A stretch of 64,000 nucleotides of DNA from Bdellovibrionales bacterium (GTDB lineage: Bacteria; Bdellovibrionota; Bdellovibrionia; Bdellovibrionales; UBA1609). A program made the position numbers and the translations under genes. The notes beneath the pieces are model-generated. The model was not told the DNA's origin. It was given only the letters and a program-made list of their open reading frames with translations, and did not search any database. Every line of letters starts with the position of its first letter. Positions within the stretch are counted from its first letter, which is position 1. Positions 18,455 through 62,600 of the stretch are shown here, piece by piece. The stretch covers positions 1-64,000 of the forward strand of contig JALZUR010000037.1 of NCBI GenBank assembly GCA_023301025.1, written 5' to 3'.

Positions 18455-18602
18455 TCTTGATCAAATTATGAACTTTAAGTAACTTTCCTCTGATATGGTC
18501 TTTTTTTGGCTATGTTAATTGCTCTTGATTTAATTCATCTTAAGAATCAGCAGCTTAATTAACACCATAAAAGCTTATGCAAATCTTAAGGAGTTCATGA
18601 CA

Positions 18603-21467
18603 ATGATAAGTCGTTTATTAGTTACTTTAGTTTTTATTTTAGCCTTAGCCCCTTCAGCTTTTTCTCAAGACTCTTCTGACCCAAATGGAAGTAAAAAAGA
18701 GACTGAAGAAAAATTAGTAAACAAAACAACGGAAGATGCTAATAAAGCTACTGAAGATGCTGTTAAAGACACTTCAAATGAGGTTTCTACAGAAGAAGTA
18801 AAAGAAAATGTAAAAGAAGAAGTAAATGAAGAAGTAAAACCTGAAAGCTCTCAAAAATTTGAACGTGTTCAGGTTACGGGTTCATTAATCAGACGTGCTG
18901 ATTTTGAAGGTCCTTCACCTATTCAAATCATTGACCGTAAATCTTTAGATGAGTCAGCTTTTAACTCTGTTGGGGATTACTTAAGAGAATTACCAGTATC
19001 CAACACAGGGTCTACGAGAGAATCTTCTGGCCGTGTGGGTGCAGATGCCTCATCTATAGACTTGCGTGGACTTGGAGCTTCAAACACTTTGGTTTTGATG
19101 AATAATATGAGGCTTCCATCTGATCCGACTACAGGCTTTTTTGATATAGGTTTGATCCCTGAAATTGCCATTGAAACAACAACAATTTTAAAAGATGGTG
19201 CCTCAGCCACTTATGGGTCTGATGCGGTTGGTGGGGTTGTAAACCTAACAACCAGAAAAAACTTTACCGGTATTGAGGCTAATATCAGGCAGGGTATCGC
19301 TGAAGAAAAAGGCGGGAATAAAACTGATGTCGGTGTTATTGGTGGTTTTGAATTTGGTGGTTTTGGTCCTGTCAAAAGAGGCTCTGTTACAGCAGCTGCT
19401 CAGTACCGTTTCAATCAAAGAATTTATGATAGAGATCGTATTTGGTCTAGACCCTCACCTGTTGATAGTCCAAAAAACATCGGTTGGAGTGCAGTTGGTG
19501 ATGTTGCCACTTATATTCCTTACGATTTTAATAATCCTGAAGAGTTTAGCTCTGACAGAAACTACATAGAAAGTCAGTGTGATGCTGCCGGATATAAAGT
19601 TTTTGGTGATGGTGGTGGTAAAGGTTTTTGTGGCTTCCCATTTGCCTTTCAATCAGATCAGGTGCCTGAGATTCAACAGCTGAGTGCGTATTTAAATACA
19701 GAGTTTGAGTTCAGCTCAAGAAGCGTTTTGGATATAACGGCTGTGGCTACAAAAAGACTTGCTGAGTGGACTTTTGCGCCATCTCCTGGACAGCCTTCAA
19801 ATGGTTTTACAATTCCATCTGCAGTGGCGGACACTTTAAATGCTGGGAGTCCGCTTCCAGGAATTACTGCTGGGCAAGATGTTGGTTTCTTTTACAGAAC
19901 CACTGAATTTGGACCTAGAGTAAGTGAAATTGAAACCTCTGCTGTCACTGTAGTATCTGCTTTTAAGCATGAGTTTAACGAGACTGCTCAGTGGAACACA
20001 ACGGCTTCTTTTACCTACACCGACAGAAAAGATGATGGTGTTTCAGGTTATGCACTTGCAACCCCTTTTATTGAGGCTGTTAGATCAGGTGCATACAACC
20101 CTTTTGATCCTAATAGAGATGTAAGTGGCTTATTAAGTGATGTTCAGCATCAGACATTTCAGTACAGCAAAAGCAATATGATTATGTTAGACACCAACGT
20201 TAATGGTGAGCTTTTTTCATTTCTAGATAAAGGACTTTTTTCAGGTGCTATTGGAGCACAGTATTTTGGTGAGTCTTTTGACGATAGAGCTGATGCTGAA
20301 AGTATTCCGAGTCTTAAGCCTGATGGCACAATTAGAAGTGATGTTTTTGGTTCTGCTGCAACATCGGGTGAAGGATCAAGAGATGTGGGTGCAGCTTACG
20401 GAGAACTTGCAATCACATATGGAACACTTGCTGAACTTCAGCTGGCTGCAAGATATGATAACTACAGTGATTTTGGTAACTCTTTGATTCCTAAGGTGGG
20501 TTTAAAAGTAAGACCTTTTAGTTGGTTGATGTTTAGAGGTTCATTTAGTCAGGCCTTTAAAGCACCACTTCTAACGTCTCTTTATCAAGATGCCTCTGAG
20601 GGCAACCCTACATATATTGATTATGTCGCTTGTGACAATGCTGGTGGAACACCAAATGATGAGAATTTTGATGAATGTCTTCCAAGACAAAGACGAAACG
20701 TAAATGTTGGTAACGAAAACCTTAAGCAAGAAGAGTCTGATATTTTTGGTTTAGGTATTATTGTTGAGCCTATTAAAAGATTAGCTATATCTGTTGACTA
20801 TTGGAAGGTCAGTCAGTCAAACGTTGTTGGTGGAGGAACTGGTTTAGTTCTTCAAGAGATGACTCGTGCAGAACTTGAGCAAGGTACTGATCCAAACGAC
20901 ACTCCAGGTGTTCAGATCAACAGATCAGCAAATGGAAACAATGAGATAAACTTTACTCAAGTAGGGGCCTTAAACCTTGGTAAAAATATTGCTGAGGGCT
21001 TAGACTTTGAAGTTTCCTATTCGTTAGATACAAAAATTGGATCCTTTAGTTTAAATAACACCTACTCAAGAACTTTTAGAAGAGAAGTTGAAGCTTTTCC
21101 TGGTGTGGGTGTTAGAGACTTTTCTGATGCCATTGGAAGTCCACTGTGGAGAAATAGAATGTTATTAAGTTATGCACCTGTTAGAGGGCATTCTTTTTCA
21201 TTTGTAGTTAATTCTACAGCCTCTCAGAATAAGAGTTTAGACAACCCTGCATCCGGTAGAATTCCTGACTTTCATAGGTTTGATTTAAGCTATACAGGTA
21301 ATGTTAAATTTCTTAGTCAAAATGGTTCTGTTACACTAGGTGTTCAAAACCTTTTAGATGAAGTGCCTCCATTTGATGATGTTACTGGTGGCCCAAATCC
21401 TTTCAACAACAGTCTTTACTCACCACTTAATAGAAACTTTTATGTCAACTACAGACATGCATTTTAA
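18603..21467 (+). CDS. TonB-dependent outer-membrane receptor
   Basis: A 954-residue outer-membrane transporter powered by TonB. After a signal peptide (cleavage near SAFSQ) comes a strongly charged Lys/Glu/Thr-rich linker (about 30-85), then a plug domain (about 90-210) with ERVQVTGSLIRRADFEGPSP and RGLGASNTLVLMNN, and a 22-strand-type barrel ending in an aromatic residue (NVNYRHAF-like C-terminal Phe). The ligand is unknown; family members import siderophores, cobalamin, sugars or other compounds. The ATG at 18603 is nine bases from the AAGGAG site; an ATG at 18597 is only three bases from it. The TonB2-type energising genes follow, supporting one functional unit. Confidence 0.93.
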   Translation: MISRLLVTLVFILALAPSAFSQDSSDPNGSKKETEEKLVNKTTEDANKATEDAVKDTSNEVSTEEVKENVKEEVNEEVKPESSQKFERVQVTGSLIRRADFEGPSPIQIIDRKSLDESAFNSVGDYLRELPVSNTGSTRESSGRVGADASSIDLRGLGASNTLVLMNNMRLPSDPTTGFFDIGLIPEIAIETTTILKDGASATYGSDAVGGVVNLTTRKNFTGIEANIRQGIAEEKGGNKTDVGVIGGFEFGGFGPVKRGSVTAAAQYRFNQRIYDRDRIWSRPSPVDSPKNIGWSAVGDVATYIPYDFNNPEEFSSDRNYIESQCDAAGYKVFGDGGGKGFCGFPFAFQSDQVPEIQQLSAYLNTEFEFSSRSVLDITAVATKRLAEWTFAPSPGQPSNGFTIPSAVADTLNAGSPLPGITAGQDVGFFYRTTEFGPRVSEIETSAVTVVSAFKHEFNETAQWNTTASFTYTDRKDDGVSGYALATPFIEAVRSGAYNPFDPNRDVSGLLSDVQHQTFQYSKSNMIMLDTNVNGELFSFLDKGLFSGAIGAQYFGESFDDRADAESIPSLKPDGTIRSDVFGSAATSGEGSRDVGAAYGELAITYGTLAELQLAARYDNYSDFGNSLIPKVGLKVRPFSWLMFRGSFSQAFKAPLLTSLYQDASEGNPTYIDYVACDNAGGTPNDENFDECLPRQRRNVNVGNENLKQEESDIFGLGIIVEPIKRLAISVDYWKVSQSNVVGGGTGLVLQEMTRAELEQGTDPNDTPGVQINRSANGNNEINFTQVGALNLGKNIAEGLDFEVSYSLDTKIGSFSLNNTYSRTFRREVEAFPGVGVRDFSDAIGSPLWRNRMLLSYAPVRGHSFSFVVNSTASQNKSLDNPASGRIPDFHRFDLSYTGNVKFLSQNGSVTLGVQNLLDEVPPFDDVTGGPNPFNNSLYSPLNRNFYVNYRHAF

Positions 21468-21491
21468 GTTTAATTTATAAGTGATTGCTGG

Positions 21492-21543
21492 AGGACGCAC
21501 TATGTCTTTATTTCTTAGAGATGGTAAGACTAATATGCGTCCT
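21492..21543 (+). ncRNA. Structured RNA element between receptor and TonB operon
   Basis: AGGACGCA (21492-21499) pairs exactly with TGCGTCCT (21536-21543), and inside it GTCTT (21504-21508) pairs with AAGAC (21526-21530). This gives a two-part stem with an internal loop and a 17-base apical loop. It encloses almost all of the short ORF at 21502-21546. It may work as an attenuator, a processing site or an expression control between receptor and TonB genes; no known family is recognised. Confidence 0.5.
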
Positions 21544-21546
21544 TAA
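21502..21546 (+). CDS. Fourteen-residue leader-like peptide
   Basis: A very short ORF, MSLFLRDGKTNMRP then TAA, preceded by an excellent ribosome-binding site (GGAGG, seven-base spacing), better than that of most genes nearby. It is enclosed by the hairpin described above, whose 3' arm includes its last codons. It lies 34 bases after the receptor and 18 bases before the DUF3450 gene. It could be a leader peptide that couples translation to expression of the TonB operon, or a true microprotein. It was found by direct reading and has no known homologue to me. Confidence 0.5.
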   Translation: MSLFLRDGKTNMRP

Positions 21547-21564
21547 AGCTGATCAAGGAGTTGA

Positions 21565-22404
21565 ATGTACATGGGTTTTAACATGTTATCGGGAGTCACT
21601 TTAGGGCTCCTTTTTTTATTTACGAGCGTTTCTTTTGGTCAATCTCAAGCTAGTAAGTCTCCAAAAGCTAAGCTTAAGACGGCAGTTGGAATTCAAGCAG
21701 ATTCTGATACCCAAGGCCGAAAGTCACAAGAAAAGGTAAACACTTTAGCAGATCAGACAGATTCTGATCTTAGAGAGTACAAGTCTGTTCTTAAACAGAT
21801 TGAGAGTATGAAGATTTACAATCAACAGATGCGTGATTTGATTGCTTCGCAAGTGACAGAGATGTCTACAATAAAAGATAAGATGAAGAATGTCTCTAAT
21901 TTAAAAAAAGACATACTTCCACTTGTTGCAAGCATGCTTAAGAATTTAAAAACTTTTATATCTTTAGATACTCCGTTCTTAAAAGTAGAGCGCCAAAAAA
22001 GAGTTAATGATTTAGAGTCTTTAATGTCTAGAGCTGATGTTTCTACCTCTGAAAAATTTAGACGAGTGCTTGAGGCCTACCAAATTGAAAATGAGTATGG
22101 AAGAACTATTGAATCTTACAATGGCAGTGTGTCTTTAGATGGTGGTGAGGACTTAGCCGTCGAGTTTTTAAGATCGGGTAGGCTTTCACTTATGTATGTA
22201 AGTCTTGATGGTAAAACATTTGGGCGTTGGGATCAGGCCTCTAAAAAGTTTGTTCCGCTTGAAGGCAAGTATAAATCATCTTTAAAACAAGGGCTAAGAG
22301 TTGCTAAAAAACAGCAAGCTCCTTCATTGTTAAAAATACCTGTCACCAAATCTGCTTCAGCAAAAAGTACTACTTCAAACTCAAAAGTAAAAGGTGAGGG
22401 TTAA
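21565..22404 (+). CDS. DUF3450 periplasmic protein of the TonB2-type system
   Basis: A 279-residue exported protein: a signal peptide (about 1-28), then a helical, coiled-coil-prone region (about 60-160; EYKSVLKQIESMKIYNQQ), and a C-terminal part with GEDLAVEFLRSGRLSLMYVSLDGKTFGRWDQ-like sequence typical of DUF3450. In Vibrio, a DUF3450 gene precedes ttpC-exbB2-exbD2-tonB2, and the same order is seen here. Its role is not settled, but it probably works in the periplasm with TtpC. Starts at 21565 or 21571 are both possible from one AAGGAG site. It is two bases from ttpC. Confidence 0.85.
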   Translation: MYMGFNMLSGVTLGLLFLFTSVSFGQSQASKSPKAKLKTAVGIQADSDTQGRKSQEKVNTLADQTDSDLREYKSVLKQIESMKIYNQQMRDLIASQVTEMSTIKDKMKNVSNLKKDILPLVASMLKNLKTFISLDTPFLKVERQKRVNDLESLMSRADVSTSEKFRRVLEAYQIENEYGRTIESYNGSVSLDGGEDLAVEFLRSGRLSLMYVSLDGKTFGRWDQASKKFVPLEGKYKSSLKQGLRVAKKQQAPSLLKIPVTKSASAKSTTSNSKVKGEG

Positions 22405-22406
22405 TT

Positions 22407-23762
22407 ATGAAAAGTTCTACGACTTACAAATTAATGATAAATATTTTTTCACTTATATTTTTATTTTTATTTTCAAATCCTGCTGGTGCTGCAGAAAATC
22501 TAGATGAGCTTTTAAAAGATGTTAAAAATAGAGCTATGCAAGAGGGACAAGTTTGGAAACAAAGAGAGTCTGAGTTTCGTTCAAAAAGAGACAAACAGGC
22601 TGGTCTTTTAAGAACAGCAAAAAATGAGCTTGCGGCTTTAGAAGCCGAAGGCAAAAAACTTGCAGCTTCTTTTGATGCCAATGAAAAAAAATTAGCAGTA
22701 CTAGAAGAAGAGCTTAATATTGCTGTTGGAACTTTGGGTGAGGTTTTTGGTGTTGTAAGACAGGTGTCAGGTGATTTTAAAGGTATTGTTGAGACATCAG
22801 TTGTATCTACTCAGTATCCTGGGCGAGCAAAATTTCTAGAATCTTTAACTGATAAAAAATCAATACCTTCTTCAGAGGAGTTGGAGAGATTTTGGTATGA
22901 GTTACAGTTAGAAATGACTGAATCTGGAAAGGTTGTGACTTATAAAACAGACGTTGTGGGCCCTGATGGAAAGACTAAAGAGATGGATGTTTTAAGGCTC
23001 GGCTCTTTTAACATCGCAACTAACGGCGACTTTTTAAATTACACTCCAGAAACAGAGACTTTATCTTATCTTTCAAGACAGCCCTCTGTTAAAGGCAAGC
23101 TTTCAAAAATTCAAGGAGCTGATGCTTTAACAACTCTTCCTATTGCAATTGATCCTACAAGAGGTGCTCTTCTTAATATGCTTATTGATGCCCCAACTCT
23201 TTGGGAGCGTTTTACATATGGTGGTATTGTTGGTTACGCCATTGTTATTGTTCTACTTTTTGGCATTGCTTTGTCAATTGAGCGCTTTTTATTTTTAACA
23301 AAAGAAGAGACTAAAATTAAAGAGCAAATGTCTTCAAAGACAGGTGATACAAACAATGCCTTGGGCAGAATTTGGCAAGCCTTTTCAGATTTGAAAGGTA
23401 TGAGTAAAGACAGCGTAGAGTTAAAACTCGATGAGGTTTTAATTAAAAACTCTGCACCATTTGAAAAAAGACTTGGACTAATAAAGCTGTTTGCAGCGAT
23501 TGCACCTTTGATGGGGCTACTTGGAACTGTCACTGGTATGATCATGACCTTTCAATCTATTACACTTTTTGGAACAGGCAATCCTGCAATTATGGCTGGT
23601 GGTATTTCACAAGCTTTAGTTACAACAGTATTGGGTTTGGTTTGTGCCATACCGCTTTTACTTTTACATAACTTTTTAAATGATAAAGCTCAGGGAATTT
23701 TAACCATTTTGGAAGAGCAAAGTCTTGGAATGCTTTCTGAGAACTTAACAAGAAACAGTTAA
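22407..23762 (+). CDS. ttpC: TtpC-like MotA/TolQ/ExbB protein with periplasmic coiled coil
   Basis: A 451-residue ExbB-family protein with an N-terminal signal peptide and a long periplasmic region, unlike ordinary ExbB (about 240 residues). Residues about 30-115 are coiled coil (KNELAALEAEGKKLAASF); residues about 260-290 begin the membrane part, with the TolQ/ExbB core GLLGTVTGMIMTFQSITLFG and GISQALVTTVLGLVCAIPLLL near the C-terminus. In the Vibrio TonB2 system, TtpC is needed for TonB2-dependent transport. It is one base from exbB. Confidence 0.9.
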   Translation: MKSSTTYKLMINIFSLIFLFLFSNPAGAAENLDELLKDVKNRAMQEGQVWKQRESEFRSKRDKQAGLLRTAKNELAALEAEGKKLAASFDANEKKLAVLEEELNIAVGTLGEVFGVVRQVSGDFKGIVETSVVSTQYPGRAKFLESLTDKKSIPSSEELERFWYELQLEMTESGKVVTYKTDVVGPDGKTKEMDVLRLGSFNIATNGDFLNYTPETETLSYLSRQPSVKGKLSKIQGADALTTLPIAIDPTRGALLNMLIDAPTLWERFTYGGIVGYAIVIVLLFGIALSIERFLFLTKEETKIKEQMSSKTGDTNNALGRIWQAFSDLKGMSKDSVELKLDEVLIKNSAPFEKRLGLIKLFAAIAPLMGLLGTVTGMIMTFQSITLFGTGNPAIMAGGISQALVTTVLGLVCAIPLLLLHNFLNDKAQGILTILEEQSLGMLSENLTRNS

Positions 23763-23763
23763 G

Positions 23764-24288
23764 ATGTTTGATTTTTTAGACCCTTTTTTTAACCTAATAG
23801 AGTCAGGCGGGGATGTTCTGCTTATTCTGTTTTTTGTTGGGGCTCTTTTAATTGAAAGAGTTTTGGGTCGAGTTATTTTTTACAATCGTTCTTTTGAAAA
23901 AATTATGAATGAAAGTCTCAAAAATTTTTCTAAAGCCCAGGAGACTGGACATGAAAAATCAAAGTTTGATGCTTACATTAGACAGATGGAAGTCTCGAAA
24001 CTAAGACAAAAACTGTCTAATCAGCTTTCAAACATTCAAACGCTTGTTTTTCTTTTTCCTTTGCTAGGGCTTTTAGGAACTGTAACTGGTATGATTGCAG
24101 TTTTTGATGTTATGGCGAATAAAGGTCTTGGAAACCCACGTCTTATGGCTTCTGGTGTTTCTCAAGCGACCTTACCGACAATGGTTGGTATGGTTATGGC
24201 TTTAGTAGGTTTATTTTCTATGAATTATTTAAATCATAAAAGAAAAAAACTAGAGCTTGTTTTAAACGAAAATTTTAGTGTGGAGTAG
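23764..24288 (+). CDS. exbB: ExbB proton-channel subunit
   Basis: A 174-residue MotA/TolQ/ExbB protein, short like ExbB2 of TonB2 systems. It has three membrane segments: an N-terminal one (about 15-32), then GLLGTVTGMIAVFDVMANKG and the ASGVSQATLPTMVGMVMALVGLF block. It forms the pentameric proton channel around ExbD in the inner membrane and energises TonB. It follows ttpC closely. Confidence 0.92.
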   Translation: MFDFLDPFFNLIESGGDVLLILFFVGALLIERVLGRVIFYNRSFEKIMNESLKNFSKAQETGHEKSKFDAYIRQMEVSKLRQKLSNQLSNIQTLVFLFPLLGLLGTVTGMIAVFDVMANKGLGNPRLMASGVSQATLPTMVGMVMALVGLFSMNYLNHKRKKLELVLNENFSVE

Positions 24289-24296
24289 TTTTTATT

Positions 24297-24707
24297 ATGA
24301 GTCGAAGAAGAAGAAATAAAGGTCAAGAAGAAACAGGTGTTGATTTAACCCCTATGCTAGATGTGACCTTTATTATGTTAATATTTTTTATAGTAACAAC
24401 CTCTTTTGTAAAAGAGGCGGGCTTAGAAGTCTCACGTCCATCTGCAAAAAGTGCAAAGAAAAAAGAGAATGCTTCAATCTTTGTTGCCATAGGTGGAAAT
24501 GATGAAATTTGGGTTGATAAAAGGCAAGTGGATCTGAGGTCTGTCAGGGCTAATATTGAGCGCCTTCATGCAGAAAGCCCAGAAGGTGCTGTGATTATAC
24601 AAGCTGACCAAGGTTCAAAAACAGGTGTTCTTGTTAAAGTTATGGACCAAATTAAGTTGGCCGGTGTTGAAGACATATCTATTGCCGCAAAGGAAGTTGC
24701 AAACTGA
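24297..24707 (+). CDS. exbD: ExbD proton-channel subunit
   Basis: A 136-residue single-pass protein: a basic cytoplasmic N-terminus (RRRRNK), then VDLTPMLDVTFIMLIFFIV with the conserved proton-carrying Asp22, and a periplasmic domain. ExbD/TolR proteins plug the ExbB pentamer and couple proton flow to TonB. The gene ends one base before tonB begins. Confidence 0.94.
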   Translation: MSRRRRNKGQEETGVDLTPMLDVTFIMLIFFIVTTSFVKEAGLEVSRPSAKSAKKKENASIFVAIGGNDEIWVDKRQVDLRSVRANIERLHAESPEGAVIIQADQGSKTGVLVKVMDQIKLAGVEDISIAAKEVAN

Positions 24708-24708
24708 T

Positions 24709-25344
24709 ATGTGGCTTACTAGAGTTTTATCCATTTTATTAGGTTTTTTCTCAGTAGCTCTTCTTTTTTTAGGAATTGGCTATGTTGTTAAAGCCCCAAC
24801 TCCTAGTTTAGATGACAAGGACCGAATGGATCTTTCATTTCTGAGAACAATCAGACCGAGTGATTTAAACGAAAGAGAGAGAAAAAAACCAAAAACCCCT
24901 CCTAAAGTTCAAAAACAACCTAATGTTCCAAAGCCAAAAGTTGCAAAAATTCAAAAATCTAATCCTTCTAAAATGAATATGAAATCTTTGCCCTTAGACT
25001 TATCTTTGGACTTAGGAAGTGGACCTTATGTGGGAGGTGTAGGCTCTGGCGCAACTGGTATGTCTGATACTGATCTTGTGCCTATTGTTAAAGTACAACC
25101 GCAATACCCAAGAGATGCAGCAATGAGAGGGCTTGAAGGTTTTGTTCAGCTTACAGTTGATATTCAAGTTGATGGTAGTGTTGCCAATCCAAAAATAGTT
25201 AACTCAAACCCAAGGCGTGTATTTGATCGAGCAGCTCTAACGGCAGCACGTAAGTACAAATACAAACCACCTGTAATCAATGGTAAGCCCCAGCTCGTGA
25301 AAGCCCATGGAATACAAATTGATTTTTCTTTGGATGGTAAATAG
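24709..25344 (+). CDS. tonB: TonB energy-transducing protein
   Basis: A 211-residue TonB. It has an N-terminal anchor (about 7-25), a Pro/Lys-rich spacer (about 50-85; KKPKTPPKVQKQPNVPKPK) that spans the periplasm, and a C-terminal domain with YPRDAAMRGLEGFVQLTVDI and FDRAALTAARKYKYKPP, which docks to receptor TonB boxes. I chose the ATG at 24709, one base after the exbD stop; the longer open frame starting inside exbD would add residues with no TonB features. It presumably serves the receptor upstream and others in the genome. Confidence 0.93.
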   Translation: MWLTRVLSILLGFFSVALLFLGIGYVVKAPTPSLDDKDRMDLSFLRTIRPSDLNERERKKPKTPPKVQKQPNVPKPKVAKIQKSNPSKMNMKSLPLDLSLDLGSGPYVGGVGSGATGMSDTDLVPIVKVQPQYPRDAAMRGLEGFVQLTVDIQVDGSVANPKIVNSNPRRVFDRAALTAARKYKYKPPVINGKPQLVKAHGIQIDFSLDGK

Positions 25345-25346
25345 TT

Positions 25347-26582
25347 ATGAAGTATTTTTTAGTTTTAGCAGTATTTATTCTTTCAGCTTATTCACAAGCT
25401 TTTGATTTTAATCAAGATGCTTCAAAGTATAAAAAAAAGTTAAACAGAAAGGGACAAGTCTCATTAACCGAACAGACTTTTAAACTTCTAGAAAGAGCTC
25501 AGGAAGATTTAAATCAGGGGGCTGATGCAAGAGCTTTTAAACTTTTTAATAGCCTTTTAAAAAGAACAAAAAATTCACCAAAAGAGCATGCACAGATTTT
25601 GCAAAACTTAGGATATGCTTTTGCACAAAAAGACAGAAATGATGAAGCACTACAGAAGTTTAATGAAGTTCTAGACTATGATGTTCTTCCACAAACGCCA
25701 ACACTGATGAGCATGTATATTTTAGGGCAAATTTATGCTTTAAAAGCGAATCACAAAAAAGCAGTTGAAGTTTTAAGTTTTTGGTTAAAAATTGCACCAA
25801 AGCCAAGTGGTTCAGCTTATGCTATGCTTGCGGGTAGTTTGTTTGAGCTCGATAGAAAAAAAGAAGCTTTAGTAAACATACAAAAGGCTATTGATTTAAC
25901 GAGTAAACCAAAAGAGTCTTGGCTTTCAATGGCTGTAAGTTTGTACTTTGCAAATAACAAGTATGCAGAAGCTGCAAAAGTTTTAGAAGTGCTTGTCGCT
26001 CAAAATCCCAAAAAAGAAGCGTACTGGAGACAGTGGGCAGCTAGCTATTTAAATGCTGATGATGAAAAAAGCGCACTTGTTGCAATGGAGCTTGGTGAGA
26101 TTCAAGGTACAGTTACTAAAGACACTGATATCAAAAACTCAGTTAGTCTTATGATGACAACCGATCTTCCTTATAAAGCTGCTATGTGGATGCAAAATAA
26201 AATGTCTAAGAAAGAATCTAGCAGTTTATCAAATCAAAAACTTTTAGCTTCAGCCTTTATGAGTTCAAGAGAAAATCTAAAGGCTTTAAATATACTAAGA
26301 AGCATTCATAAAGAACAACCTGAAATTAAAAGCTCATTGCAGCTTGGCCAGATCTTACTAGAAGAAGAAAAATGGCAGGAGTCTTTAAAGGTTCTTAATA
26401 AGACTAAAGGCCTAAAGCCGAATAAAAAACAAAAAGAAGAGATTCTTATCAGTGAGGGTATTGCCCACTATAATTTAGGGGACTTAGATAAATCAAGACA
26501 GTCCTTTGTCGCAGTTGCAGACACTTCTGAGACTGCTAGAACGTGGTTATCCTTTATTCAAAAACAAGACGTTAAGGACTAA
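25347..26582 (+). CDS. TPR-repeat protein at the end of the TonB operon
   Basis: A 411-residue protein with a signal peptide (about 1-19, ending near AFDFN) and several tetratricopeptide repeats over most of its length, for example YAFAQKDRNDEALQKFNEVL, LAGSLFELDRKKEALVNIQK and AHYNLGDLDKSRQSF. A TPR gene also closes the Vibrio TonB2 operon and is thought to assist the complex. It begins two bases after tonB. It is probably periplasmic. Confidence 0.85.
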   Translation: MKYFLVLAVFILSAYSQAFDFNQDASKYKKKLNRKGQVSLTEQTFKLLERAQEDLNQGADARAFKLFNSLLKRTKNSPKEHAQILQNLGYAFAQKDRNDEALQKFNEVLDYDVLPQTPTLMSMYILGQIYALKANHKKAVEVLSFWLKIAPKPSGSAYAMLAGSLFELDRKKEALVNIQKAIDLTSKPKESWLSMAVSLYFANNKYAEAAKVLEVLVAQNPKKEAYWRQWAASYLNADDEKSALVAMELGEIQGTVTKDTDIKNSVSLMMTTDLPYKAAMWMQNKMSKKESSSLSNQKLLASAFMSSRENLKALNILRSIHKEQPEIKSSLQLGQILLEEEKWQESLKVLNKTKGLKPNKKQKEEILISEGIAHYNLGDLDKSRQSFVAVADTSETARTWLSFIQKQDVKD

Positions 26583-26665: not shown

Positions 26666-28414
26666 ATGAGTTTTGATTATGATCAGTTAAAAGCTAATGA
26701 AAATAATGATGGCAATTTTTGGGCCAGCTACAGTGACCTTTTTATGGTTTTATCCCTAGTATTTTTGCTTTTGTATGTTGTTGCGGGTCTTCGATCGGGT
26801 ACCAATAGTATTAAAAATATTATGGAATTTGACAGAATAAAAAAAGAAAACGCTGATTATAAAGAACAGATAAAAGCCTATAATACGTTAAAAGATGATT
26901 ACCTTACACAAGGGTCTACTGAAAGTGAGCAAGAAACCTATGAAAAGCTTATGGGTAAACTTACTCTGTTAAAAGATGAAGCTAAAGAAGAAAAAAATGA
27001 GTTAAGAAAAAAAGCTCAAGAGAATGCTGAAAAAGAAGAAGCTCTAAACCAGTATCAACAGATTGTAAGAAATATTATTAACACTAATATGCTATCTGCT
27101 GCGCGTATGAAGCGTAAAAATAAAGTTATCACTAAAATTGATAAAAGCTTAGAAGAGAAAAAAGTTGAAGTAAAAGAGCTTAATAAAGTTGTTTCAGAAA
27201 AGCAAAGTGAAATTGAAGAGCGTACTGAAGAGATTGAGCAAGCCAATGAAAAGCTTGATCAAAAAGTTGATCAGTTAAAGCAAGCGTTTAAGAAAAATAA
27301 AATCACTAAGGCAATGATGAATGCCAAAATGAAAAAGATTAAGAAAAAAGCTGATGCAGAGATTGATGAGCTTCAGAGTAAGGCAAATGAAGTTGAAGGG
27401 GAGCTAGAGCAGGCCATGTCTAGTTTGTCTCAAGCTCAAGATGAAATTGATCAAAAAGATGAGACTATAAGTCAAAAGAACACAGAGCTAAGTGCTCTTG
27501 AAGCTAAGAAAAAGCAAACTGAGCAAGAGATTGAGGGCATGAAAGATGAGTTTAGACAGGCCAGAAGTAAAGCTCAAAAAGAATTTAATGAGCAGCTTAG
27601 AAATCAAAGGCTTTCAGCTTTAGAGAGATCTAAAAAGATTGAAGCTTTTAGAGATAAACTTGCTGAACAAAAAAATGACTTAGATCAAAAGGTTCAGTCT
27701 CTAGAAGGGCAAATGAATGCTAAGCAACAAGAACTTGCAGATGCTGAAGCTAGTGTCCAACAGGCAAAAGCTAGAGCAAGAGCTTTAAAAGGTCAAAATA
27801 GCAAACTCTCTAAAAACTTAGCAAAAGCTAAAGATATCATTGATGCAAAAAAGAAACTTACAAAAAAGATTGCAGACAGTTTAAGAAAAGCTGGGGTTAA
27901 AGCGAGTGTTGATGGAAAAACTGGTGATGTAGTTCTAGATTTCGGACAAGAGTACTTTGACACTGGAAAATCAAACCTTAAAGCTAATATGAAGTCTACA
28001 CTGAAAAAGTTTATGCCAGCTTACTCTAAGAGTTTATTACAAGATAAAGAAATTGCTTCAAAAATTAAATCTGTAAAAATTGTTGGTTTTGCATCCCCTA
28101 CCTATAAAGGTCGTTATGTTGATCCAAGAAGCCTACGTTCTGAAGACAGAGAGGCAGCAAAGTACAACTTAGAGCTTAGTTATAAAAGAGCTGAATCTAT
28201 TTATGATTATATTTTTGATAAAAGATACATGAGTTATCAATACCAAAAAGAAATTTTACCTATGGTTGAAGTGGCTGGGAGAAGTTACTTTGCTGAGGGT
28301 GAAGAGAAGCAACGTGAGATTGCAAGCAATTTGCCTTCTGGTGAATACTGCAAAAAGTTTGATTGTAAAAAATCACAACGTGTAATTATTAAATTTGACA
28401 TGAAAAATAAGTAA
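26666..28414 (+). CDS. MotB/ZorB-type stator protein with very long coiled coil
   Basis: A 582-residue protein with a short cytoplasmic N-terminus, one membrane helix (about 25-45) carrying Asp24 in the FWASYSDLF motif (equivalent to the proton-binding Asp of MotB), then a continuous coiled coil from about 55 to 430, and a C-terminal OmpA-like peptidoglycan-binding domain (about 435-582). The OmpA part has VLDFGQEYFDTGKSNL, KIVGFASP and YNLELSYKRAESIYDYIF, with two Cys (YCKKFDC) near the end. Flagellar MotB has no such long stalk (usual length about 300). It precedes its MotA-like partner, the reverse of the usual order. It is probably the peptidoglycan-anchored subunit of a proton-driven motor. 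Confidence 0.82.
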   Translation: MSFDYDQLKANENNDGNFWASYSDLFMVLSLVFLLLYVVAGLRSGTNSIKNIMEFDRIKKENADYKEQIKAYNTLKDDYLTQGSTESEQETYEKLMGKLTLLKDEAKEEKNELRKKAQENAEKEEALNQYQQIVRNIINTNMLSAARMKRKNKVITKIDKSLEEKKVEVKELNKVVSEKQSEIEERTEEIEQANEKLDQKVDQLKQAFKKNKITKAMMNAKMKKIKKKADAEIDELQSKANEVEGELEQAMSSLSQAQDEIDQKDETISQKNTELSALEAKKKQTEQEIEGMKDEFRQARSKAQKEFNEQLRNQRLSALERSKKIEAFRDKLAEQKNDLDQKVQSLEGQMNAKQQELADAEASVQQAKARARALKGQNSKLSKNLAKAKDIIDAKKKLTKKIADSLRKAGVKASVDGKTGDVVLDFGQEYFDTGKSNLKANMKSTLKKFMPAYSKSLLQDKEIASKIKSVKIVGFASPTYKGRYVDPRSLRSEDREAAKYNLELSYKRAESIYDYIFDKRYMSYQYQKEILPMVEVAGRSYFAEGEEKQREIASNLPSGEYCKKFDCKKSQRVIIKFDMKNK

Positions 28415-28434
28415 TAAATTAAGGAGAGAAGTAA

Positions 28435-29346
28435 ATGAATGGTATAGTACACGGAATAATAGATGGGTTGGTGGTTTTTGCCACAGATCTTCTGATTCCA
28501 TTTATGGTCCTTTTGTTCATTTTCGCTGTAACTATGAGAACTCTAGTCTTTTTTACTGTGAAAAGACAAAAGTGGTTTGCTGAAGAGTTTCAAAAAAGAG
28601 TGAATGTTCTTATTGAATCAGAAGAATTTATCAAAAAATCTAACAAATCTTTTTATGTTTTAACAAAAGGTGCATTAGAGAAAACATTTTATGAGCTTTT
28701 TGAAGTTAGAAGCTTTATGAAACGTAGAAAGCCTGACTTTATTATGACATTTACTGACAGAGTTTTTCTTATACAACAGGGGTGTGCTTGGTATGTAAAA
28801 GATGTCTTAAGACAGTTAAAGTTTTTACCTTATCAAAGAGAGTCAAATCCTAAAATTTTTGAAATTTCAAAAAGCACGTTTCAAAGAAACCCAGCTTTTA
28901 ACAGAGTTTTTGGAATTATTCCTGCTTCGGTTAGCACTGAACTTTTAAATATGATTCCAGGAATATTTATTGTACTTGGTATCTTTGGTACTTTTTTAGG
29001 TATAATGAAAGCCCTACCAGATTTAGGTAATATGGATCTTTCGGATATTGAAGGTACTAAACTTGTAATGGATCAGTTTTTACTTAAGATCTCTTTTTCT
29101 ATGAGTACGTCTTTAATGGGTATTTTATTGTCAGTTGTAATGAGTCTATTTAATGCTTTTTTCAATCCTACAAAATCTTTTATTGATGCTGTTGATAGAA
29201 TGGAGATTACGCTCTTTACGTTATGGAATGTGAGCAATAATAATGACAAGGTTGTTACAAATGGTGATTTTGATGAGCATAAAGACCCTGTAGCAGCTCT
29301 CGCTGAGCAAGCTATTGCAAGACATACAAAAGACCATGCAGCTTAA
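28435..29346 (+). CDS. MotA/TolQ/ExbB proton-channel protein, partner of the MotB-like stator
   Basis: A 303-residue protein of the proton-channel superfamily. It has an N-terminal membrane segment (about 13-40), a large cytoplasmic loop (about 45-180), then NMIPGIFIVLGIFGTFLGIMKAL and ISFSMSTSLMGILLSVVMSLF, the two channel-forming helices. The topology is closer to TolQ/ExbB than to four-helix MotA. The start has a clear AAGGAG site, 20 bases after the MotB-like gene, so the two should be co-translated in fixed ratio. The cytoplasmic loop is where such proteins contact partners. What the motor drives is unknown. Confidence 0.82.
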   Translation: MNGIVHGIIDGLVVFATDLLIPFMVLLFIFAVTMRTLVFFTVKRQKWFAEEFQKRVNVLIESEEFIKKSNKSFYVLTKGALEKTFYELFEVRSFMKRRKPDFIMTFTDRVFLIQQGCAWYVKDVLRQLKFLPYQRESNPKIFEISKSTFQRNPAFNRVFGIIPASVSTELLNMIPGIFIVLGIFGTFLGIMKALPDLGNMDLSDIEGTKLVMDQFLLKISFSMSTSLMGILLSVVMSLFNAFFNPTKSFIDAVDRMEITLFTLWNVSNNNDKVVTNGDFDEHKDPVAALAEQAIARHTKDHAA

Positions 29347-29650: not shown

Positions 29651-32407
29651 GTGTCTGCTCATTATGGATTTAAAATAATATCATTTACGGCAAGTGGTCA
29701 GTCTGAAGGGACTGTTAAAGGCTTTGAATTTGAAGTTGGTAGAAATATCTCTAGTGATTTTGCTATTATGGCTAATGGTGTCTCAAGAAAACACTTAATT
29801 GTAAGCTATAAAGATAATCAAATTTATATAAAAGATCTTGGATCAACCAATGGAACATACTTAAAAGGTGAACGTATAGAACCTCTAACGGAGATTTTAT
29901 ACACGCCAGGTGACAGAGTCAGTCTAGGACAAGCAGGGTGTTTTATAAAAATCTCTAGTTGTGAACAAGAGTTAAATACAAATGCTGGACCAAATATTGC
30001 TTTCGATAAATCTAATGTAAGTGGTGAACATAAAAAATTTGAAGATACAGATTCTAAAAAATCAGTAGATGAAACAGGAATCTTTACAAAACTTTTTAGT
30101 GCTGATGAAAAAGATAAATCAAAAGCCTCAAAGTATATGAAAAATGCTGAAATTCTAGTTAAAAAAAGAATTAAAGAAGCTGAAGGTTCAATCAAAGATG
30201 GTATTGAAAAAGCCAGAGGGCGGGCAAAAGGTATAGTTCAAAAAGCTAAAGTTGAAGCCAGTACAATCTTAGAAGAAGCCCAAGTTGAAAAGTCTAAGCT
30301 TATTGAAGAGGGTCAAGCTGAAGCATCAAATTTTATTAATGCGATTAATCAGCAAAAAAGTGATACCGAAGCTGAATTAGAGAGTATTCAAAAGCAAATA
30401 TCCGATGCTGATCAGATTAAAAAAGACATTGATGTTGAAATGCATGAGTACACTTCAAAGAAAGGGATTATTCAAACAGATTTTGAAGGTTTAGAGCTAC
30501 GTTATAAAAACCTAGACTTAGCTTTTAATGAAAAAAACGATAAATATGAAAAAGAATTAGAACTTTTAAGAGTTGAATTAAAAGAAAAAGAAACTCGCTT
30601 AAGTGCAATTAAAGAAGAAAAAGAAAGTCTTTTAAAAAATCACACACAAAAAGTTGATGAATCTCAAAAGAATTTTGATGTTCTAAATGAAAAACATAAA
30701 AAATACAGCCAAGAAATTACTAGTTTTAAGTCTGAAAAAATCTCATTAGAAGAAAATATTTCTAAATTAAAAAAAGATAAAGATGAGGCTTTAAGATTAA
30801 AAGAAAGTACTGAAAAAGATTTTGATCAAATAAAAGAGAAAGCCGATAGGATTATTTCTGATGCAGAAAAAGAAGCTATTTTAAAAAAAGAAGAGTTAGC
30901 TAAAGATTTTGCTCTAAAGCAAGACAAGTTTGAAATAGAAAAAAATGAATTTTTTGATTCCATAAAAGAAAAAGAAATGGAGCTTGCTAAGCTAGAAGAG
31001 ACAAAGTTAGAAGAGATTGAGATTGATAAACAAGAGATCTTAAAGGCTGCCAAAGATGAAGCTGAAAGTATTACCGCGACCGCTAAATCTGAACTTGTTG
31101 TGGTTAAAGAGGATTTAGATAGGCTGCAATCTGAGATTGATTTAAAGTCCAGAGATTTCAATGATGAAAGAGAAAAAATTGTAGATACTGCAAATGTTGA
31201 GGCTAAAGCGCTTATTGAGGCTGCTCTTTTAGAGAAAAAAACTCTTTTAGATGATATAAAGTTTCAACAAGAACGAGTGCTTAAAGAGTCTAAACAGAAG
31301 ACAGATTCAGCTGATAAGTATCACACTGAAACCATTGGAAAGGCTAATGATTATTGGAGTGAACAAAAAAGTAAGGCTGATACATACAATAAAGAAAAAC
31401 TTCAAGATGGCGATAGCTACTACTTAGAAAAGAAAGACTCTGCTGATAAGTATTTTAATAATATAAAGTCAGAAACAGATGATAAGATTAAAGAGTATAA
31501 AGATGGCTCTTATGCTGATCTCGAAAAAGAAATTGCTGAATTTAAAGTTTCTGAAACTTTAAAGGTAGAAAAAGAAGTATCTGAACAGAAAAAACTTTTC
31601 AATAATTATAAAAAAGAACTATCAAACTCATGGTCTCAGTTAATTTCAGACTCTTTTTATAACTCTTGTGTTAATGATTTAGGTATTAATGTTACTAATT
31701 CTTTGGCTTTCAAAGATAAAATGAAAGATACAATAACTTCAATTGTCCTTGATAAAAACCCTGATGAAGAAAATAAAGTTAGGGGCATAATGAACTTTGA
31801 CCCTGAGAAGAAAGACAGAGTTAAAAAGTATTGGAAGAGAACAGCTATGACTATTGGTATCTGTGCTGTTGCTTTATACTTTGCTCCTTACGTTTTAAAA
31901 GGTGTAAAGAAGCAAGCAGTAACTGTTGCTGAAAATTTTGAAGCTGATAATGTTGAAAAAATTAAGTCTATTGAAGAAAAAAGAAAAATTGAAAGAACTT
32001 TTGTTCCTGAAAAAGTAGATGAATTTTTTGATAACTACACTGAAAGAGTAGTTTATACAGAAGGTTATGTAGAAAATGAGCTTGATAGCTCTTACAGAGA
32101 AGAATGGTTTTTAAATTTAGATACTTTTTTTGTTGAAGAGCTAATCTTGTCTGATGAAGCTATAGTTACTTTTATATCAGGTGAAACAAATCTGATTAAA
32201 AAGTTAGCTGAAATTGGAGATGAAATAAACCCTAAATTTTTAGATGAAGGTTTATCCAGAATGAAGACTATTGAAGACGAATTTGTTTCTGAAGTTAGAA
32301 AAATTGTTAAATCAAAGTCAAAATACAACAGATTTGTTAAATTTAAAAAAGAATACTACTTAAAAAACTTCCCTTTCGGTTCAGAAAGAGAACTTTCGAG
32401 TGAGTAA
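29651..32407 (+). CDS. FHA-domain, giant coiled-coil, single-TM protein
   Basis: A 918-residue protein starting at GTG. Residues about 5-105 are a forkhead-associated domain: GR (30-31), SRKH (45-48) and DLGSTNGT (62-69), the residues that bind phosphothreonine peptides. Residues about 160-690 are coiled coil rich in Lys, Glu and Asp, with tandem EAxx/KAxx-type stretches. A single membrane helix follows (about 730-750; GICAVALYFAPYVL), then about 165 residues predicted to be periplasmic. A cytoplasmic FHA on a long stalk with a periplasmic tail is the layout of GltG of the Myxococcus gliding machine; I see no TonB-like domain in this tail. It overlaps the next gene by eight bases. Confidence 0.8.
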   Translation: MSAHYGFKIISFTASGQSEGTVKGFEFEVGRNISSDFAIMANGVSRKHLIVSYKDNQIYIKDLGSTNGTYLKGERIEPLTEILYTPGDRVSLGQAGCFIKISSCEQELNTNAGPNIAFDKSNVSGEHKKFEDTDSKKSVDETGIFTKLFSADEKDKSKASKYMKNAEILVKKRIKEAEGSIKDGIEKARGRAKGIVQKAKVEASTILEEAQVEKSKLIEEGQAEASNFINAINQQKSDTEAELESIQKQISDADQIKKDIDVEMHEYTSKKGIIQTDFEGLELRYKNLDLAFNEKNDKYEKELELLRVELKEKETRLSAIKEEKESLLKNHTQKVDESQKNFDVLNEKHKKYSQEITSFKSEKISLEENISKLKKDKDEALRLKESTEKDFDQIKEKADRIISDAEKEAILKKEELAKDFALKQDKFEIEKNEFFDSIKEKEMELAKLEETKLEEIEIDKQEILKAAKDEAESITATAKSELVVVKEDLDRLQSEIDLKSRDFNDEREKIVDTANVEAKALIEAALLEKKTLLDDIKFQQERVLKESKQKTDSADKYHTETIGKANDYWSEQKSKADTYNKEKLQDGDSYYLEKKDSADKYFNNIKSETDDKIKEYKDGSYADLEKEIAEFKVSETLKVEKEVSEQKKLFNNYKKELSNSWSQLISDSFYNSCVNDLGINVTNSLAFKDKMKDTITSIVLDKNPDEENKVRGIMNFDPEKKDRVKKYWKRTAMTIGICAVALYFAPYVLKGVKKQAVTVAENFEADNVEKIKSIEEKRKIERTFVPEKVDEFFDNYTERVVYTEGYVENELDSSYREEWFLNLDTFFVEELILSDEAIVTFISGETNLIKKLAEIGDEINPKFLDEGLSRMKTIEDEFVSEVRKIVKSKSKYNRFVKFKKEYYLKNFPFGSERELSSE

Positions 32408-32801
32408 AACTATTAAGATTTTTTCTCAAAAAAAAAATACTTTAACAGATAAAAAACTACTTTTTTTTTCTGTAGTTATAAATGTAATGACTCTTATTGT
32501 CTTAAGTCCAAGTTTTCTTAAGTCTTATAAAAGTCTAAAAGATATATACAGCACTCAAAATGAATTAATTCCAAATAGAGTTATAAAGTGTCAGTTGCCA
32601 TTGAAAAATGGTCTTTTCCAGAACTTGTATTATATGGCACCTGATAAACAGACTGCTAAAAAACTACTGTTTAATGACAAAACGGGTTTGTTTTTTGATA
32701 ATATGTTATTTGTAAAAACAACTGACTACAAAGGCATTGACCATGTAGTTCCTTTTACAGATGTTTTTTGTGACTCTATCGGAACCGAAATTAAAATATA
32801 A
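32400..32801 (+). CDS. Small single-pass membrane protein coupled to the FHA protein
   Basis: I do not recognise this 133-residue protein. A basic N-terminus (about 1-22) leads to one membrane helix (about 22-45) and an 85-residue, probably periplasmic domain with two Cys (IKCQLP and VFCDS) that may form a disulfide. It starts at a GTG eight bases inside the FHA gene, so its translation depends on that gene. It is likely a partner of the FHA protein. Confidence 0.65.
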   Translation: MSKTIKIFSQKKNTLTDKKLLFFSVVINVMTLIVLSPSFLKSYKSLKDIYSTQNELIPNRVIKCQLPLKNGLFQNLYYMAPDKQTAKKLLFNDKTGLFFDNMLFVKTTDYKGIDHVVPFTDVFCDSIGTEIKI

Positions 32802-39720: not shown

Positions 39721-40452
39721 CTAGAAGGGGAGTTTATTCATAATTTTAACAACAACTCTTCTATTTTTTGTATTGATCTCTTCATCTGAAAGTTCAGCTG
39801 CATTTTCACCTGCTACGACCGGTCTAGTTTCTCCGAACCCAATAGTTAATATCTGATCTTTAGAAAAACCTGTATCTTCAAAAAGCCTTGCGATAGCATT
39901 TGCTCTAAGGCTCGAAAGTTCCCAGTTACTTGCAACTAAACCTCTGTTTATTGGCACGCTATCTGTGTGACCTTCAATTAGTATTTTTTTATCAGACGTT
40001 TGCTCTTGTACAGAGCTTGATATGTCGTCCATAAGTTTTTCAGCTTCGTCTTTTAACTGAATTGAACCAGAAGTGAATAAAACTTTTCCTGTAAAATTAA
40101 TTGTAATGTTTGATTTGTTTACTTCAACATTGACTGATTCTGACAGTCCTTTTTCACTTAACAGGCCTTTTAAGTCTTCACCAATTTTTTCAAATTCATT
40201 TGTAACATCAACTTCACCACCAGTAAATTCAGCAATCTGTTCACCAAATGAAGTAAACTTTTCTTCATCAAATGTACCCAAAGATGTCATTAAAGCAAAA
40301 AACCCCATTAAAAGTGTCATAAGATCTGCGTAACTTATGAGCCAAACACCTTCAGTTTCTTCTTGTGCTTCAGGTATTAAGGCGTGCTCTTCAAGTTCAG
40401 CTTTGGCTTGATCGAGTTCGTCTTGAAGTTGATTGTAATCTAACTTTTCCAT
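39721..40452 (-). CDS. motB: MotB flagellar stator protein
   Basis: A 243-residue protein with a short acidic cytoplasmic N-terminus, a membrane helix (about 37-57) containing the proton-binding Asp43 in GVWLISYADLMTLLMGF, and an OmpA-like peptidoglycan-binding domain (about 120-240; LIEGHTDSVPIN, NWELSSLRANAIARLF, IGFGETRPV). It pairs with MotA in the flagellar motor. It ends three bases from infC on the opposite strand and starts three bases after motA, so motA-motB form an operon. Confidence 0.93.
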   Translation of the reverse strand: MEKLDYNQLQDELDQAKAELEEHALIPEAQEETEGVWLISYADLMTLLMGFFALMTSLGTFDEEKFTSFGEQIAEFTGGEVDVTNEFEKIGEDLKGLLSEKGLSESVNVEVNKSNITINFTGKVLFTSGSIQLKDEAEKLMDDISSSVQEQTSDKKILIEGHTDSVPINRGLVASNWELSSLRANAIARLFEDTGFSKDQILTIGFGETRPVVAGENAAELSDEEINTKNRRVVVKIMNKLPF

Positions 40453-40455
40453 TTT

Positions 40456-41271
40456 TTAAGCAGCCTTATCCATGTCAGACCCACCAGGTGCATTTTTTCT
40501 TTTAACAAGGGCTCTTTCGCTTGGAAGAAGATAGCTTTTTAGGTTCTCTTCAACAATAACAGGATGTTTTTTTTCTCTAATCATTTGAAGCCCATCAATG
40601 GTCATTTTTCTAATAATTTTATCTTGTTTGTTAAACTTAGCTAAATTTTCTCCAACTGGAATAAAAATAAAGTTAGCAACTGCAATACCGTAGAGTGTAG
40701 CGACAAGGGCAGTGGCCATTGCAGGCCCTACACTATTAATTGCGTCTGCTCCACCTAAGCCTTGCATCAGGGCTATGATTCCGACAACAGCACCTAAAAG
40801 ACCAAACGCAGGAGGAAACTTAGCAAGAGTTGTAAACATATGAGCATCTTCAGAATAGCGTACATAATGAGTGTTAGCTCTTTTCGTTAAAATAAGATTA
40901 ACCTCTTTACTTGTAAAGACACCATCTAAAAGAAGTTGAACGCCTTCTTTTAAAAATAGATTTTGGATTTTATCAAGATTGTCTTTTAAGTAGTTGTCAT
41001 CAGTTCTGTATTTTGCCGAAATATTAACAATCTCTTCAATTATGCTTGAGTATTGATTTTCTTTTCCTTTTAAAACTTTAGACAGAAAAAGCTTCATGAG
41101 CTTTGTCAGATTTTTTATATTAAAGCTAAGTAAGGCTGCCGCAAGCGTACCACCTAAAACTATAACAGCTGCATGCCAGTCAAGAAATATAACTGAGTCT
41201 TTTACAGAGCTCAGTGCGACCACTAAAAAAACACTAATGGCCAAAATTAAGCCGAATAAAGAACTGTTCAT
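40456..41271 (-). CDS. motA: MotA flagellar stator protein
   Basis: A 271-residue protein with four membrane segments: about 5-22, 32-50, and two near the C-terminal half containing FGLLGAVVGIIALMQGLGG and MATALVATLYGIAVANFIFIP, the MotA core. It forms the pentamer around MotB that drives the flagellum. I start it at ATG 41271, which has a GGAGA site eight bases upstream; a longer frame from 41343 has none. The C-terminus ends in a Lys/Arg-rich tail. It is divergent from the GYF gene. Confidence 0.93.
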   Translation of the reverse strand: MNSSLFGLILAISVFLVVALSSVKDSVIFLDWHAAVIVLGGTLAAALLSFNIKNLTKLMKLFLSKVLKGKENQYSSIIEEIVNISAKYRTDDNYLKDNLDKIQNLFLKEGVQLLLDGVFTSKEVNLILTKRANTHYVRYSEDAHMFTTLAKFPPAFGLLGAVVGIIALMQGLGGADAINSVGPAMATALVATLYGIAVANFIFIPVGENLAKFNKQDKIIRKMTIDGLQMIREKKHPVIVEENLKSYLLPSERALVKRKNAPGGSDMDKAA

Positions 41272-41471
41272 CTTTGTCTCCTGTTCCTTAATGAGATCGG
41301 CAATATGATGAAGCTTATTAATAAATTCAAAAAGATGTTTCATAAAAATGCAGATTCAACTTTAGTCGTAATCTTACATAGGTCTGGTTATCTGTAAAAT
41401 AAGTATATACTAAGGTTGGTGTTTTAAATTGAATTATATAAATAAAGAATAAAAAAATATAATATTACAGT

Positions 41472-59600: not shown

Positions 59601-62600
59601 GACGAAACCTATTACTATGTTATTAGGTACACGAATCCATCAGGTGTTAGTACTGAATCTAATGTTGCTTCAGCAACGCCAAAAGAAACTCCGACACCAG
59701 TTGAAAATTTTAAAATGACCTTAGTTAATAATAATCCAAGAATTTGCAATGGTGCTGTAAGTTTACTGGCTAGTTGGAAAGCAAAGTCTTATGTAGGCTC
59801 TTATGTTCTCAACTCTGCTAATAACAAAGGTCAGGTACAAAACACAGTTCTTTCAACTACACAAAATAATGCTATTCATTGCAATATATTCAACCTACCA
59901 AATGACCTAAGTTATTTAAATATTATACCTCAGTGGCCAAATGGTACGATATCTATTTCAAATACAGAGGGCTTTTTTGAAACTTCAGCTCCTCGACTTG
60001 AAGCTTTTGCTGGTGATGATGAGGTGTTGCTGACATGGTCAGATGTAGTGTTAGATCAGACGCTTCAAAATTACACTTTGATTTATGATTTGTTTTACTC
60101 CTCAGATCCAGATCAAACATTTGAACCTCTAGCTTTAGGTGTAAATCAAGTTTCTTACGTAGATACTCTAGCTAATGGTGAGGCAAGGTATTATTATATT
60201 CAAGCCTATGTTATAGATATAGATGGAGATAGAATTTACATTGGGCCTCCAAGTGTTATACAGAGTGCTAGGCCAGCAGCCACTCCGCAAGCTCCTAGTA
60301 ATTTGACAGTTGAAAATAATGAAGGATCAAAAGTAAAATTAGACTGGTCATCACCCAGTCATTATAATGGATTTTCGATTTATAAATCAAATAGTGCTTT
60401 AGGACCTTTTACAGAAATTGGTTACACTACAAATAATAGCTTTAGTATTTTTAGTGAATCAGAAGGACTTCACTATTATATGGTTAGGGCTGTTTGGGCC
60501 ACTACTGAATCAACAGATTCAAATGTTGTTGAGCAAAGAGTTGCTGAGATTAAAAATCTTACACTGGTGCCTACTAATACCGAGATTACTCTAAATTGGG
60601 ATTCTATTTTGGGTGCAAGTGATTATGTCATTTATAAAGACACTGAATTTGAAGGCAGCTTTTCGTCTTCTTCAGTTGTAACTTCTAATACTTATACAGA
60701 CACAGGTCTTCTTCCCAATATATCTTATTTTTATAAAATTAAGGCTAGATTTCTTGATGGAACAGAGGGAACTCTTGCTAATGCCTCATCATCGACATCA
60801 AACAGCACTTTACCAACAGGTCTTAGAGCTGAGTCTCAAAGTACAGGTGGAGTTCGCGTAAGTTGGTTGCCTGTACCGCAAGCTTTACAGTACAGAGTAT
60901 TAACTTCTGATCAAGAAAATGGAGTGTATGAGCTAGCAAGAACAACAGTAAATACAAGCACTGATATTTTTGGTTTAGCTTTATTAACAGAAGTTTTTTT
61001 TAAGGTAGAGTACGTGTTTGATACTCAAACATTTACATCAGAATTTATTTCATTTACTCCTAAGCCAATTTTGAGCCCTCCTATTGTTAGATCTGGTGAT
61101 AATCTTTTGAATATTGAGTGGTTTACTACTTTAGGGGCAAATGACTATGATCTATTACGTTCCACAGACGGTATCAATTTTGTACCCTTAGTTAGTGGGT
61201 ATAGTAATATTTCTTATGTTGATAATTCTGTTGTAAATGGATCTCTTTATTTTTATAAAGTTCAAGCAAACTTTGACAACGCAATCACCTCTCTTTCAGG
61301 CTCAAGTGTTGGGATTACACCAGGAATTGTTCCTTTAGAACCTTCTGGTCTTCAAGTTGAAAACACTGGAACTGGAATTAATGTAGAGCTTTCTTGGTCG
61401 AGTGTTGACGGTGTGAATCGCTATGCTGTCTATCAAAGTACAACTTCAGGAGTTTACGATGCGCCTGTATTAGAAACATCTTCTAATTTAAGAGTTGTTT
61501 TATCGGGTTTAAGTACAAATCAACAGTATTTTTTCACAGTTAAGTCTCTAAATGGAGATATAGAAAGTCCCTTTTCTCAAGAGGTTTCAATTGTACTAAG
61601 TCCAAATTTAGAAGCACCCGATGTAAGCTATGAGACAGCTAATAGTCTTTCTTTGTTGTGGCCAGATGTAGTAGGTGCAAGTACTTTTGATGTATTTAGA
61701 TCAATAGATTCATATAATTTTGATCTGATAGCATCAAATGTAAATACAAATAGCTATATAGATTCAAGTTTAGATGTGGCGGAAACTAATTACTATAAGT
61801 ATTTAGCTAGAACAGCATCAGGTGTTGAAATTGCACTCTCAAATGTAAGTCAGCCCATAAACTTAGACACTGCACCGCTTACTCCAACAGATTTGAGAGT
61901 CTTTTTAAAAACTCAGACTGAAGCTAACCTAAGTTGGTCGGCACAAACCAGTGTTTTTGCTTATCAGATATTTAGATCAACCACTGCAGGAACGGGCTAC
62001 GTTCAAGTTGGTGAAGTGCCTTCAAATGAAATCAGCTTTACTGATACCACCTTATCTCCTAATCAAAGTTATTACTATGTAGTAAGGTCTACTTCGAGTA
62101 TTGGGGTTCCCTCTAGTTTTTCAAATGAAGTTTCTATTGCTACTGATTTGGGTATAACAGATTTACTAGCTAATGATTTATCTGGACAAATTAATCTCAC
62201 ATGGTCCGCTTTACCGGGTGTTTTAAATTATAGTGTTTATAGATCAACAGTTACTGGTGGTCCTTTTACGTTTATAGGCACAACTAATAATCTAAGTTAT
62301 AGCGATATCACATATCTTCCTGAAAGAGAGTATTTTTATATTGTTTCCGGAGTTTATAGCACTGGCGAAGAAACAGTTGTTTCTAATGAAGTGACTTTAA
62401 GTCCATCTGGATTTTTAGATTTTGAAGTTTCAATTGATCTTATTGATGAACCAGCTAGGTCAAAATCTTTGGTGGATCAAGATTTTAAAAGAGGTCAGGT
62501 TTCTTTTGATCCCGAAGACTATGATGGAGTTGTTGAAATTTCATATGAAGTTGTGGCGCAAAATTTTGATAACGAAGATCGTTCTGTGCTTTTACTTGAT

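Follow-up and report, generated by a model that had tools for sequence, protein, structure and literature searches.

A ZorAB-related gene pair with a long helical spacer and a conserved FHA-domain partner in a Bdellovibrionales bacterium

The locus lies in a 64,000-nt stretch of contig JALZUR010000037.1 (the window) and begins with two forward-strand genes that the original prediction had described as a stator-type pair at 26666-29346. Both open reading frames were found exactly there, with sound starts and plausible ribosome-binding sites. The first (26666-28414) encodes the 582-AA B subunit, which is MotB/ZorB-like, and the second (28435-29346) the 303-AA A subunit, a ZorA-like protein of the MotA/TolQ/ExbB fold. 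A third conserved gene, absent from that prediction, follows on the same strand (29651-32407) and encodes a 918-AA protein with an FHA domain, a coil, a transmembrane (TM) helix and a C-terminal domain. The end of this gene is overlapped by an ORF of 133 AA with one hydrophobic segment (32400-32801), which was tried as a fourth component and left out of the system because the related loci that were examined lack a homologue of it. No Rfam match was obtained within the window, simple promoter and terminator scans gave no signal above shuffled sequences, and no published study of these genes was found in the literature. Upstream, at 18597-26582, lie genes for a TonB-dependent receptor, a DUF3450 protein, an ExbB with a DUF3450-like N-terminus, a second ExbB, ExbD, a 239-AA ORF product and a TPR protein, together resembling an energy-transfer cluster of the TonB2/TtpC type. 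Membership of the A/B/FHA trio in this DUF3450-ExbB-ExbB-ExbD-TPR cluster was rejected since the flanks differ in relatives; the genes surrounding the trio vary between genera.

The A subunit has three TM segments, and its ion-site residues T186 and S226 are invariant. Its C-terminus extends for about 60 AA beyond the last TM segment and is devoid of the cytoplasmic extension of ZorA; the structure model of A alone had a pLDDT of 46, too low to be of use. Residues T225-S226 form a Thr-Ser tandem that aligns with the same tandem in Shewanella ZorA, the structure of which holds Na+ (PMC11890865). The original prediction had called the pair proton-driven; the tandem may be taken as a hint of Na+ use, not as proof.

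In the B subunit a W19..Y22-S23-D24 motif leads into a single TM helix (residues 24-42). The channel aspartate D24 (codon at 26735-26737, + strand), singled out in the original prediction, is invariant in all 17 B homologues and corresponds to the Asp of type I ZorB (PMC11890865). Both the Asp in B and the Ser/Thr ring in A, as in the ZorAB core, are present. The predicted OmpA domain is real, with its start at about residue 410 and not 430. Although the Pfam OmpA match is weak (22.7 bits, below cut-off, residues 430-523), the PADLOC ZorB1 model matches residues 380-581 with an E-value of 6.5e-31, and the OmpA/ZorB-type peptidoglycan-binding domain (~410-582) carries invariant N501, L504 and R508 and a C562/C567 cysteine pair. 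B matches OmpA and not PF02472, the ExbD/TolR fold. Elsewhere in the same genome an OmpA match lies within an open frame of 8919 AA (contig C45, 23194-23388).

The channel helix and the wall-binding domain of B are separated by a helical spacer (residues ~45-408) with zero proline over approximately 356 residues; 16 of the 17 type-1 homologues, those with script-found boundaries, have no more than one proline in this region. Its proximal part (~AA 45-155, 26798-27130, + strand), which includes ALNQYQQIVRNIINTN, is helical and strongly conserved and shows no clear heptad signal. The heptad coiled-coil part follows (~AA 155-408, 27128-27889, + strand), the 3.5-residue period being significant only from ~130-155 to 408. 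A single continuous coiled coil from about residue 55 to 430 had been proposed earlier; the long helical spacer holds, and its continuity does not, as the structure model contains two turns. The expectation that a straight rod would exceed the width of the periplasm is borne out, with 356 extended residues amounting to about 53 nm. In the model, a monomer built from a two-sequence input with a mean pLDDT of 60 (73-88 only for AA 150-280), helices are predicted at 50-82, 86-209, 215-313 and 318-408, and turns at 210-214 and 314-317 would yield rungs of 13-18 nm. The first turn coincides with a conserved [ILM][ST]K motif. Its distance from N141 is exactly 71 residues in 11 of 17 homologues, and two others have it at 64 or 78 residues (-7 or +7), the pattern expected of a heptad-constrained arm. 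These turn motifs are not universal: one homologue (L053) is missing the first, and two (L054, L055) have no clear second. The weaker fold matches of the B model include helical-hairpin proteins. Because canonical heptads are confined to ~130-408 and two turns interrupt the modelled helix, the coil of B most likely folds back and does not form one straight rod. Spacer length ranges from 255 to 443 AA among close relatives. In divergent relatives of the pair from family f12 (L094-L099 and L113; e.g., L095:8241-11351), the B subunits have nearly proline-free spacers of ~400-800 residues, and an FHA gene is not adjacent. A range from 255-443 to ~800 AA indicates that the spacer does not act as a ruler of set length.

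By profile, tree and fold comparison alike, both subunits are nearest to ZorAB of Zorya, a specific kinship that the original prediction had missed. Searched against PDB, the A profile retrieved ZorA chains (8vvn, 2.7e-7) and one chance match (E 0.53), and in the B search ZorB chains were the stator-type matches, the remainder being unrelated coiled coils. ZorA models matched all 19 A members, and four ZorB structures headed the list of fold matches for the B model. In the channel-region tree, a check suggested in the original prediction, the A family groups with ZorA (support 100/99), apart from ExbB/TolQ and MotA; the alternative groupings, with MotA (p 0.27) and with ExbB/TolQ (p 0.19), were not rejected by AU tests, which ran on few alignment columns. 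The pair shares with ZorAB (8VVN, 8VVI, 8QYD) the channel region, the Asp plus Ser/Thr ion site, the three-TM A subunit and the ZorB-type peptidoglycan-binding domain. It differs in the missing ZorA extension, in the ~350-AA spacer inserted in B, in having an FHA partner instead of ZorC/D/E, and in being chromosomal and widespread in one phylum.

The third protein has an N-terminal FHA domain (AA 28-93) with the standard ligand-binding residues, a coil of ~550 AA and a single TM helix (AA 731-749). Its C-terminal domain is helical, conserved and predicted to be periplasmic, and gave no match to Pfam, TonB included, or to PDB chains; together with the TM helix it occupies 31805-32398 (+ strand), the stretch behind profile A5. 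Among 325 Bdellovibrionota genomes, which are mutually related so that the counts are not independent, A orthologues were found in 133, the FHA protein in 122 and both in 118. The two genes lie within 8 kb of each other in 106 of these 118 genomes; the complete genome G175 keeps them 917 kb apart, and some A/B pairs occur without the FHA protein.

In FHA-positive genomes the A subunit ends in a tail resembling FDEHRDPxEALAE, here at ~AA 278-293 (29266-29313, + strand; includes FDEHKDPVAALAEQA), a short motif that we propose as a docking tail. Among the first 51 loci it was seen in 33 of 33 FHA-positive (30 by pattern, three degenerate ones by eye) and in 0 of 18 FHA-negative ones. For 20 added check loci the stated patterns matched 8/15 FHA-positive and 0/5 FHA-negative sequences, and the aligned tail was visible by eye in 15/15 of the former. 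A relaxed pattern, fixed after the stricter ones had caught only 8/15 held-out FHA-positive sequences, matches 48 of 48 A proteins with the FHA protein and 0 of 21 without it. In a tree of A calculated minus the tail, all FHA-positive members fall on one side of one branch; the association of tail and FHA protein thus counts as one event and cannot alone prove contact.

We consider it reasonably probable that these genes encode a ZorAB-branch motor with B as its wall anchor and the FHA protein as its coupling or gating part; the motor would serve a non-flagellar envelope or surface task and not phage defence. An alternative flagellar stator would share the 5:2 stator logic, the WxSYxDL motif and the OmpA-like anchor in B with MotAB/PomAB, and A was found in 167 of 296 FliG-positive and only 2 of 29 FliG-negative genomes, counts that cover all E-values and include divergent paralogues. 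Yet B differs from MotB in its long coil, A has three TM segments against four in MotA and is matched by neither MotA/MotB nor PomA models, and the PDB matches of the A and B profiles are Zor chains with zero MotA. Moreover, the source genome (G000) gave no match to FliG or FlhA, and probably the organism has no flagellum, a reading that follows from these missing genes; G015 likewise has neither match, and both genomes keep A together with the FHA protein. Retention of the pair in the source genome contradicts the flagellar-stator reading for this species, and we regard it as very improbable. The suggestion that the pair does a non-flagellar job agrees with its ZorAB kinship and with the missing FliG and FlhA. 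A separate flagellar MotAB had been placed at 39721-41271; MotAB-type genes are indeed present (39721-41343, - strand), but the term flagellar is doubtful in a genome with no FliG/FlhA match. A second MotAB-type pair lies on contig C15 (~60638-61724) of this 97.5% complete genome.

A Zorya system proper is ruled out by the missing tail, effectors, cut-offs and mobility. The long cytoplasmic C-terminal extension of ZorA is required for defence (PMC11890865), and scans of the neighbours with Pfam, NCBIfam and PADLOC revealed no recognisable ZorC, ZorD or ZorE. It could be argued that the locus encodes a divergent Zorya-like phage-defence motor, with other genes as effectors and with the FHA-coil protein acting as the ZorA tail in trans; ZorA and ZorB are the nearest relatives, and the long cytoplasmic coil of the FHA protein resembles that tail. 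We find this improbable, given that none of 315 genomes reaches the curated ZorA cut-off (NF033914, 190 bits), that flanks differ between genera and that the Bdellovibrio-like genus g36 keeps one copy in almost every species sampled, a steady and not a patchy distribution. Relatives were not found in plasmid, phage and viral-contig collections either, and a scan of genome contigs returned one match, in Bdellovibrionia. Long-tailed ZorA-like proteins under the ZorA cut-off were noted in other Bdellovibrionota (L125, L126, L130). A Tol- or Agl-like envelope machine, in which the motor would use the periplasmic domain of the FHA protein to pull on a partner at the outer membrane or septum, with B as no more than a fixed wall anchor, has somewhat more in its favour and is still unlikely in our judgement. 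TolQ-TolR and ExbB-ExbD resemble the pair in their A subunit, which has three TM segments and belongs to the same Pfam family, and the AglRQS-GltG gliding system of Myxococcus likewise combines a non-flagellar motor with an FHA-TM-periplasmic protein; GltG has this architecture (PMC3169522), and the C-terminal domain of the FHA protein is conserved and predicted to be periplasmic. The channel subunits, however, are not of Agl/Tol type: B has the OmpA and not the ExbD/TolR fold and the tree position is separate, whereas the Agl motor subunits are of the ExbB/ExbD type. GltG ends in a TonB domain, whereas the helical C-terminal domain here belongs to no known family and has no TonB, other Pfam or PDB match.

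An FHA-linked envelope motor is our best guess of the function. By homology, A and B would assemble into a ZorAB-branch rotary motor, ion-driven and of 5:2 stoichiometry, with five A subunits around the paired TM helices of dimeric B. The ion path would lead past D24 in B and past T186, S226 and T225 in A, and the flow would turn the A ring against B, the OmpA domains of which would grip the peptidoglycan. In this species the spacer of B probably extends outwards, returns and extends outwards once more, its helices stacked antiparallel in rungs of ~13-18 nm, which would make a rigid stand-off within the width of the periplasm. In Zorya, ZorA moves a cytoplasmic tail of its own. The present A subunit is devoid of such a tail, and most likely the FHA protein receives the motion or controls it; the FHA domain and long coil of this protein would lie in the cytoplasm and its C-terminal domain in the periplasm. 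This protein possibly docks through the FDEH-DP-EALAE tail of A, and a phosphothreonine-marked partner bound to the FHA domain would set the time and place of motor work. The task would be a chromosomal, non-flagellar one in the envelope or in surface motility, and not phage defence.

Tentatively, and with confidence just short of even, we propose a distinct housekeeping branch of ZorAB-type motors in Bdellovibrionota, with a folded-stack wall anchor and geared to the FHA protein through the A tail, which may act in gliding, in the invasion of prey or in remodelling of the envelope. The solved Zor-type motors are those of phage defence. If such a housekeeping branch exists, the Zorya defence motors would have relatives that work outside defence, in the ordinary biology of the cell. 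The relative described here is widespread and chromosomal and has a fixed partner, and its presence in Bdellovibrio-like species amenable to culture and mutation would allow one to ask which roles Zor-type motors had before defence or alongside it. It also poses the question of how torque may be transmitted across the periplasm by a seemingly over-long rod.
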